A DNA stretch of 64,000 nucleotides from Deltaproteobacteria bacterium (lineage in GTDB: Bacteria > Desulfobacterota > Binatia > UBA1149 > SPBQ01), in the NCBI GenBank assembly GCA_029262375.1, contig JAJCZM010000008.1, positions 193,291-257,290 on the forward strand, given 5' to 3'. Below, piece by piece: positions 26,140 through 29,669 of the stretch. The position numbers were made by a program, and so were the translations under genes. Within the stretch, counting starts at the first letter, position 1, and each line of letters opens with the position of its first letter. The notes beneath the pieces are model-generated. The model was not told the DNA's origin. It did no database searches and saw only the letters and a program-made list of their open reading frames with translations.

Positions 26140-27277
26140 GGCGGCGACGCGTCGCCTTTACCGTTGGGATACAGTCGTGAGCATGCGAGTCAGACCACAT
26201 CGGCGTCTTCGAGCTGTTTTCGGAGCGACGTGCGTACTAGCCGGGCTATTCCTTACGTCGGCGCCGACGCCGTCGTTGGCGCAGAACGGCCAGGACGATC
26301 GTGAGCCGCGACAGGTCGTTACGCACTTCTTCGTAGGCGGAACCGGCAAGATTGCCGGCCTACAAACCGTCATCGGCAATAGTCTGACCCATCGCATTCG
26401 CCGTTCGGAGACGTTCCTCGAGATCTCTCGAGAGTATGACGTGGGCTACAACGAATTGGTGGCAGCGAATCCGGGCATCGACCCCTGGGTGCCACCGACC
26501 GGTCGCGACATGCTCGTGCCGGCCGAATGGGTGCTACCTGCCGGTGAGTTCGACGGTTTGGTCGTGAACATCCCCGAGATGAGGATGTACTACTACGTGC
26601 CGTCACCGCGAGCGGGAGCTAAGTCGTCAATGGCTATTACGTATCCGGTCGGACTCGGCCGCCAGGACTGGCAGACGCCGCAAGGCGCGTTTCGGGTTCG
26701 CGGAAAGACGAAGAATCCCGCTTGGGTCATTCCCGAATCGATCAAGGCTGAACGGATCCGTGACTCCGGGTCTACTGAAGACGTTATTCCGGGTGGGCAT
26801 CCTGAGAATCCTCTCGGTAAGTACCGGCTCGAGCTGACTATACCGTCGTACGCGATCCACGGTACCAACAAGATCGGTGGTATCGGGATGCAGGTCAGCC
26901 ACGGCTGCATTCGTATGTTTGCGGAGGATATCGAGGCGTTCTTCCCGCTGGTACAGATCGGTACGGCCGGTCGCTTCGTCTATCAGCCGATAAAACTCGG
27001 TGTTCGACGCGGCCGGGTGATGGTCGAAGTCCACGAAGACATCTACGGCGTTGCTCCTTGGCCCTGGCTCCTAGCGCGCGAGCTGGTCGAGGGCATGGGC
27101 CTGGAACGATACGTGGATGAGAAGAAGCTGGAGGCCGCCGTAGAAGCGTCGAGCGGAATTCCTACCGATGTGAGCTTCGTGGATTGGTCGGCACCCGAAC
27201 CGCAAGAGGCGATTCGCTTCGACAAACGCGGCGATCCCGTGAAGCCGTACGCGGATCAGACTGCTTCAGCGCGCTGA
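26102..27277 (+). CDS. L,D-transpeptidase (YkuD) with LysM-like domain; true start probably about 26177-26183
   Basis: LysM-like [31 protein letters not shown]; YkuD motif [29 protein letters not shown]; signal peptide after the probable start. Confidence 0.9.
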
Positions 27278-27279
27278 TT

Positions 27280-27867
27280 TCACCAGCGAGTCGACACGTA
27301 TACACCGGCGCGCTTACCGCTGATGCGCGGCTTGATGCGGGGCACGTCGATCGGGTCGAACCCGAGCGCTTCGCCACTGCGATTCACGATCGATTCGGTG
27401 ACAGTCGCCATTCCGGCGAACGGCTTCGCTGCGCCCTTCTCCGCTCCATCGGCGAGAGCGGCGACCGTGTCGGCGCTGCGTGTGAGGATAGAGTCCGGGC
27501 CGTACTCTTCCTGAATACGCACGCGGGCCTCTTCCGGATTGGACGGGCTACGGTAGCGTGCCTCCGGAGTGAATTCCCCGGCATCCTCGCGCTTACGTCG
27601 TAGTCCTGCTTCGTACATTGCTCGTCCCAGCGACGCTCGATCGTTAATCCCGCGTACGGCATCGAGGTCGGACGATCTCAAGTTGGATGGGGGGAGGGCC
27701 CCCGGGAGCATGATTTCCAGCTCGGCCGACGCAACTCCGCAGGGTGTTATCTCGCCGATGGATTCGGTTGCGGCGGCCGTTGCTCCCAGCACAAGTGCGA
27801 AGACGAACGCGGCTCCCGATAGGAGGAGTTCATTGGAGAACCGTCCCCCTTTTGGGTCTCGTGCCAT
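27280..27867 (-). CDS. Hypothetical membrane-anchored/secreted protein
   Basis: Start MARDPKGGRF at 27867 (ORF track 27909); hydrophobic ELLLSGAAFVFALVLGATAAA; no recognised domain. Confidence 0.6.
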   Translation of the reverse strand: MARDPKGGRFSNELLLSGAAFVFALVLGATAAATESIGEITPCGVASAELEIMLPGALPPSNLRSSDLDAVRGINDRASLGRAMYEAGLRRKREDAGEFTPEARYRSPSNPEEARVRIQEEYGPDSILTRSADTVAALADGAEKGAAKPFAGMATVTESIVNRSGEALGFDPIDVPRIKPRISGKRAGVYVSTRW

Positions 27868-27911
27868 CCAGACCACGTCACCATGGCGTGGACCGGGCGT
27901 CAAGCTCAATG

Positions 27912-27941
27912 AAAAAAGCCCTCCGCTATGCGGAGGGCTTT
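27912..27941 (-). terminator. Rho-independent terminator downstream of the minus-strand gene at 27979-28407
   Basis: Perfect 12-bp stem AAAGCCCTCCGC-TAT-GCGGAGGGCTTT (27915-27941); on the minus strand it runs into TTTTTT. Confidence 0.88.
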
Positions 27942-27978: not shown

Positions 27979-28407
27979 CTAGGAGGCTTCCTGAATGAGA
28001 GTCTCTGGTTCCGGAACAACCTCTGCCGCTTCCACTTCGATGAGGCGGTTCGACAGGGGAACGATCCGTGCCGTGGCACGCTTGACCGGAGCACGTTGCT
28101 GACGCCACTTCGAAAGACCGCGCCGGATGTACTCGGGGTGCAGGCTCAGCACTTCGCAGATGTTCTCATAAGAGAACGGCCACTCGCGCTCGCCGGATTC
28201 GATCCAATCGCGTGCGTCGTCAAAGAGAAGGGTCCCGCGCGGGTCACGGGCCAGTGCGTATTTCTGGTAACACTCGACGGCGTCTTGAAGGACGGCGAGC
28301 ATCAGTCGGCGTTCCCGAACCAAACCGCCCTCGCGGGCGAATGCGGCAAAGTACTGTGCCGGTAGTAGAGTGTCGGGCTCAAAGAGATTTACGAATCGAT
28401 CTGCCAT
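27979..28407 (-). CDS. Conserved hypothetical protein, possible HTH-like segment
   Basis: 142 aa; FEPDTLLPAQYF, ERRLMLAVLQDAVECYQKYALARDPRG, WPFSYENICEVLSLHPEYIRRGLSKWR. Resembles an uncharacterised deltaproteobacterial family by recollection, not by search. Confidence 0.75.
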   Translation of the reverse strand: MADRFVNLFEPDTLLPAQYFAAFAREGGLVRERRLMLAVLQDAVECYQKYALARDPRGTLLFDDARDWIESGEREWPFSYENICEVLSLHPEYIRRGLSKWRQQRAPVKRATARIVPLSNRLIEVEAAEVVPEPETLIQEAS

Positions 28408-28492
28408 CAGTTTTCCTCCCGCATCTTGAGGCCGGGTGCGTATTGCAGGTCCCCGTGATGCGTGGCGTCATCTAACACCGTTTCCGGCGCCG

Positions 28493-28521
28493 TTGGAAGA
28501 TGAAATTTCATGAAATAATAA
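28493..28521 (+). promoter_or_regulatory. Promoter-like element (TTGGAA-17 nt-TAATAA) with overlapping palindromes in the spacer
   Basis: -35-like TTGGAA 28493-28498, -10-like TAATAA 28516-28521; palindromes ATGAAATTTCAT (28500-28511) and ATTTCATGAAAT (28505-28516). Confidence 0.4.
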
Positions 28522-28640
28522 CCGTACCCAAATTAGCAATCGTTATCTCCGGCTAAGTGGTGCTGAAGATGCCGATCCCGTGATCGATGGCCAAGAGCCC
28601 CGCAAGTCCCGGTATTCATACCGGTAGTGGGGCATTTTTA
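28522..28640 (+). ncRNA. Candidate small RNA ending in a terminator-like hairpin
   Basis: No supported CDS; hairpins at 28551-28599 and 28597-28633, then TTTTT 28635-28639; lies between a promoter-like element and that terminator. Confidence 0.35.
28597..28639 (+). terminator. Rho-independent terminator-like structure
   Basis: Outer GCCCC/GGGGC (28597-28601/28629-28633), inner CCGGTA-TTCA-TACCGG (28609-28624), T5 at 28635-28639. Confidence 0.6.
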
Positions 28641-28775
28641 GGAGAATTGCCCGGAAAAGGCGGGAGAAGGCGCTACAACCCTACCGCCGTGCCACTGGGT
28701 CGGTGTTAAACCATTGAGGCAAGGGCCGTGTCAAGCGGCTCGAGATGGGACTCTGTGCAATGACGCTGTGTGGCA

Positions 28776-29669
28776 TCAGTTGGGGGGGGGCGAGCACTGG
28801 CTCTTTGTGCGCTGGAGAGGCGCACTGGGCTTGGAAATGGGCGCTGGGAGCATTTCGAGGCGCTCCCGGCCGGGGGTGCGGGTGCGATCGAGCTCACGGC
28901 GCATGGCGGCAATAATCCGATTGGCCTCCTCGGCCAACGCACCATAGAGGCTCTTCTGATGGGCGACCTCGAGGCAGGATGCGAGCACCCGTAGTCTGCC
29001 GGCTAGTCCGCGCCAGCGCGCCTGGGCCCCTCGACTGGGTGCCGTTACGTGGTCATGGCGTGCGCTGGACCAGATCTCCATGTTTTCGCGCAAGATGGCC
29101 GCGGCTTTCTCGTGGTCGGCTTGGTCTACGGCCTTTGCGTAGCGATTGAGTGTGGGATTCTGCTGCGAAGTCGGCGGTCGCCGACCGGGGTCAATGGTCC
29201 GGCCGGCGACTCGCGCACGTGGCAGCACCCCAATAATCGTCCCGATTATCTGTTGACGGGATCCCTGCGTTGGGAAAGGAAGGAGGCTTGGGGCTGCTGG
29301 ACGCATCACGGTTCGCCCGCCGCGGTCATAATCAACCCGCCTAATAGTCTGGCCGTCGCCGTCTTTTACGAGTACGAGGCGTCCTGGAGTGGCTCTTGCC
29401 CCCGGCTCGACGACGATTTGCGCGCCTTTGGGGATGCCGGCTTCCTCAAAGGCGTTGGTCATCGCTCGCAGTACGAACAGCCGCCGCTTTTTCCAGGCGC
29501 CGGACGGGAGTCCCAAGAATTCCTCGAACGCAACCACCGACATGGCCGGGGTTTTTTTGAACGGCGTCCGATTGAACGGTGTTTTGGCGTTGGATTCGAC
29601 TGCACGCGAGTCGGCCAGCTTCGGGCTGCGGCCACGAACGGTGTCGCTAACGGTCTCCAAGTTCGTCAT
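28776..29669 (-). CDS. S24/LexA-fold (peptidase S24-like) domain protein, probably catalytically inactive
   Basis: EAGIPKGAQIVVEPGARATPGRLVLVKDGDGQTIRRVDYDRGGRTVMRPAAPSLLPFPTQGSRQQIIGTIIGVLPRARV matches the S24 beta-barrel pattern; no recognisable N-terminal HTH. Confidence 0.6.
   Translation of the reverse strand: MTNLETVSDTVRGRSPKLADSRAVESNAKTPFNRTPFKKTPAMSVVAFEEFLGLPSGAWKKRRLFVLRAMTNAFEEAGIPKGAQIVVEPGARATPGRLVLVKDGDGQTIRRVDYDRGGRTVMRPAAPSLLPFPTQGSRQQIIGTIIGVLPRARVAGRTIDPGRRPPTSQQNPTLNRYAKAVDQADHEKAAAILRENMEIWSSARHDHVTAPSRGAQARWRGLAGRLRVLASCLEVAHQKSLYGALAEEANRIIAAMRRELDRTRTPGRERLEMLPAPISKPSAPLQRTKSQCSPPPN

Follow-up and report, generated by a model that had tools for sequence, protein, structure and literature searches.

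A probable promoter/operator region of a minus-strand regulator-like gene at a proposed small-RNA locus of an uncultured Binatia genome

Introduction

Does a short intergenic stretch that ends in a terminator-like hairpin encode a small RNA (sRNA) of its own, or does it serve a neighboring gene? The question was raised by the genome of an uncultured member of the Binatia (Binatota), of which we analysed a window of 64 kb (G000:C8:193291-257290; "the window" denotes this whole stretch). The candidate sits in the intergenic region 28408-28775, with minus-strand genes on both sides (a gene for a 142-aa protein and an S24/LexA-like gene), and the initial annotation interpreted it as a candidate orphan sRNA gene on the plus strand, equipped with a promoter-like element of its own, a terminator and a possible alternative fold. 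The absence of a plus-strand gene immediately upstream, on which that interpretation drew, is correct: 27280-27909 and 27979-28407 are both encoded on the minus strand, and the nearest convincing plus-strand gene upstream of the candidate ends at 27277. As the window genome is the single representative of its family (f1) in the comparison set, comparisons begin at the order level.

Results

Inspection of the proposed promoter recovered TTGGAA (28493-28498), a 17-nt spacer and TAATAA (28516-28521) on the plus strand. The two hexamers score 4/6 and 3/6, i.e. 7/12, a value reached or exceeded by 667 plus-strand sites in the 64-kb window and hence not above chance; a promoter scan of the candidate region returned no 9/12 site. 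TTGGAA overlaps the complement of a conserved TCTTCCA and TAATAA that of TATTTCAT, and conserved CTAAT and GATAAC sites fall in the first ~20 bases of the supposed RNA. Both the hexamers and the presumed start are thereby contained in a 75-bp array of sites (28473-28547) belonging to the 142-aa gene on the minus strand. A promoter dedicated to the sRNA is thus unsupported and, with its hexamers inside the conserved putative control region of an opposite-strand gene, so is the sRNA itself.

Regions upstream of orthologues of the 142-aa gene (27979-28407, minus strand) were alignable only across a block near the gene. There, conserved sites stand at fixed spacing: GATAAC (28542-28547), CTAAT (28532-28536), TATTTCAT (28510-28517) and TGTTA (28473-28477), corresponding on the gene's strand to the pattern GATAAS-N5-CTAAT-N14-TNTTTCAT-N32-TGNTA (75 bp; 28547-28473 in the window). 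Upstream of the 142-aa gene and on its strand, the array scored 17-22 out of 22 in 12 of 13 genomes of the order and, among seven loci of family f11, 20-22 in five and 12 and 14 in the other two, compared to shuffle maxima of 12-16; as the pattern had been derived visually from sequences of the window and of f11, these scores are high partly by construction. One genome of the order, L026, lacks the block. A search of 145 whole genomes for the first half of the array, allowing at most one mismatch, yielded seven sites, all upstream of members of the 142-aa gene family and on the same strand, as established by comparing their coordinates with the gene-family search results; one of the seven belongs to family f6, which was not used in deriving the pattern. 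An earlier, stricter array pattern gave no matches.

A structured RNA within the conserved block was rejected, given the lack of covarying pairs and a folding energy of -0.3 kcal/mol. Being conserved, fixed in spacing and linked to one gene without covariation, the block fits DNA binding sites rather than structured RNA; its sites, conserved at fixed spacing upstream of the 142-aa gene and on its strand, are as expected of a promoter/operator region. Its promoter scores in the window and relatives are weak and alike on both strands (plus strand 7-8/12, gene strand 6-8/12), so that divergent firing is possible; that the block is linked to a single gene, always in the same orientation, favors the gene strand. 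By eye, family f11 (L029-L036) carries TTGCNN ~15 bp before the GATAAG of the array, an element that, in this family, may itself constitute the promoter of the gene and that was not seen, again by eye, in the window's order.

In the window's order, the next element after the array is the palindrome ATGACGCNNYGCATCA (28471-28456, minus strand), a probable operator conserved in 12 of 13 genomes. Its start lies at a distance of 46 bp from TATTTCAT in 11 genomes and of 47 bp in one. The palindrome also occurs in four f2 genomes (L071-L074), 38-39 bp upstream of a TTGACA that precedes an operon in which a MerR-type regulator gene immediately precedes the gene for a paralogue of the 142-aa protein; in the window genome, no good copy accompanies the equivalent operon (L078:1075-2541). 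Probably, then, the palindrome is the operator of a factor that would also act at this MerR/paralogue operon. Copies in mnmG of family f3 (L075-L077) were dismissed as a coding coincidence.

Each of the 148 Binatia genomes searched has matches to the 142-aa protein, in most cases several; the window genome alone has ten matches, and paralogues are represented by L062-L070. Searches of Pfam and NCBIfam returned no family above cut-off, and sequence and fold searches of the PDB gave no credible match. The AlphaFold model is helical (mean pLDDT 74.9, >90 in residues 31-100). A sub-threshold helix-turn-helix (HTH) hint, together with the MerR linkage, suggests a DNA-binding role for this regulator-like protein. 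Downstream of its gene, on the same strand, lies a perfect 10-bp-stem terminator with a T6 run (27917-27939, minus strand).

On the far side of the intergenic region, the S24/LexA-like peptidase-domain gene (28776-29669, minus strand; Pfam PF00717) would be the antisense target of any plus-strand readthrough. A counterpart, ~30-41% identical, is found next door in nine order relatives. The two genes are adjacent in most order relatives, and the S24/LexA-like gene diverges fast at this identity compared to its 142-aa neighbor, which is 70-88% identical. Distal to the 142-aa gene, a promoter-like TTGACA-N18-TTTAAC (28734-28705, minus strand) matches at 10/12 positions; of the 13 order genomes, eight have an exact TTGACA upstream of the gene and five have none within 500 bp of it.

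The terminator-like hairpin of the candidate (28597-28639, plus strand) proved to be as strong as initially annotated: GCCCC (28597-28601) pairs with GGGGC (28629-28633), and T5 follows at 28635-28639. With -20.3 kcal/mol over 37 nt, it is one of two plus-strand sites in 64 kb that combine T5 with an energy of at most -20 kcal/mol, as compared to 0.075 expected per strand from shuffles; by energy alone, T5 not being required, it is unexceptional. A simpler terminator scan missed the hairpin, probably because of an internal loop. Its stable GC-rich stem directly before a T run on the plus strand is that of an intrinsic (Rho-independent) terminator, from which it differs in having no upstream plus-strand gene to serve, in the internal loop of its stem and in its occurrence in a single genome. 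No counterpart was detected in 12 order relatives, nor was a repeat family of the hairpin found within its own genome.

The alternative fold, in which GGCT (28551-28554) was to pair with AGCC (28596-28599) in competition with the terminator stem, fared differently. Both tetranucleotides are present, but the helix has a pairing probability of 0.0 and, when forced, costs 11.5 kcal/mol (-26.7 vs. -38.2 kcal/mol for the free fold); in the nascent RNA, the forced fold reaches -14.7 vs. -21.4 kcal/mol. Attenuator-type folding was therefore rejected as not competitive.

Sequence conservation stops at the block and does not extend through the RNA. The sole part of the proposed transcript outside the block (28548-28640) has no counterpart in relatives: the RNA body found no credible DNA match in 57 relatives, a search of 58 genomes with the intergenic region returning only itself and three short, chance-level matches, and neither body nor hairpin is conserved in relatives of the order. 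No Rfam family was matched at strict or loose thresholds. The candidate resembles an independent bacterial sRNA gene in being intergenic, short, non-coding and terminated by a hairpin-like element, but differs from one in its lack of conservation and of an Rfam family; its independent promoter is putative. Of the initial proposal, the terminator-like hairpin without an upstream plus-strand gene holds, while a dedicated promoter and the alternative fold are unsupported; an orphan sRNA may exist but lacks support.

Discussion

Based on the comparisons above, we consider it probable that 28456-28547 serves the minus-strand 142-aa gene as its promoter/operator region, with a lineage-specific plus-strand terminator beside it. 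The block is conserved, regularly spaced and linked to one gene, conservation at the RNA level is lacking and the adjacent hairpin is strong. We infer protein binding, start sites and a role for the terminator: the array blocks at their fixed spacing would be bound by RNA polymerase and at least one regulator, the adjoining palindrome would act as the operator for a factor shared with the MerR/paralogue operon, and the hairpin would stop divergent transcripts from the AT-rich block, or antisense readthrough, before they reach the S24-like gene. The region resembles a regulated bacterial promoter with an operator palindrome in its short, regularly spaced blocks, its palindrome and its single target gene on one strand; it differs in that the binding factor is putative and that searches with the protein family gave no confident domain, sequence or fold match. 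Counting against this explanation are the gene-strand promoter score, which is no better than that of the plus strand, the genome L026 without the block, and the window genome's own MerR operon, in which a good palindrome is missing.

Since promoter scores of the block are as poor in one direction as in the other, we retain, as unlikely, a lineage-specific sRNA (~28528-28639, plus strand) that would fire divergently from the block, perhaps regulated by the palindrome-binding factor, and end at the terminator. It would give a real terminator without a plus-strand gene something to terminate, the block's plus-strand scores hold up at 7-8/12 in relatives, the distance of 37 bp between the palindrome and the plus-strand -35-like hexamer is near the 38-39 bp that separate the palindrome from TTGACA at the MerR operon, and folding of the RNA is somewhat better than that of shuffled sequences (z -2.3). 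However, the hexamers are weak, body and hairpin are absent in relatives and without an Rfam match, conservation ends at the block rather than within the RNA, and the array is linked to the gene on the minus strand. Less likely still is the extended version, in which the factor binding the palindrome, perhaps the MerR partner, would drive both the 142-aa regulator and an oppositely oriented, terminated sRNA towards the S24-like gene.

Could the hairpin instead act on the minus strand, in a long 5′ leader transcribed from the distal TTGACA promoter (28734-28705)? The 10/12 match of that site, the recurrence of TTGACA in eight of the 13 order genomes and a leader that folds better than shuffles (z -2.9) speak for it, but only the plus-strand side has a T run, neither leader sequence nor hairpin is conserved between families, and in five order genomes no TTGACA occurs within 500 bp, making this very unlikely. 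We assign the lowest probability of all to a chance structure with no role: a hairpin with no relatives, confined to one genome, would suit it, as similar structures do arise by chance when judged by energy alone, yet a compact stem with T5 is expected only 0.075 times per 64-kb strand, and this one is positioned within a short intergenic region.

Under the promoter/operator reading, a weak sRNA call gives way to a feature with better support, a control region of fixed spacing before a regulator-like gene family, which extends beyond the window's order to f11 (array) and f6 (first half). As the case shows, control sites can mimic an orphan RNA gene when the strand opposite to theirs is read. 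Should the divergent 142-aa regulator/sRNA unit be true after all, it would represent an undescribed regulatory circuit of Binatia. Together, the array, the palindrome and the MerR partner operon offer a concrete entry point to the gene regulation of an uncultured phylum.
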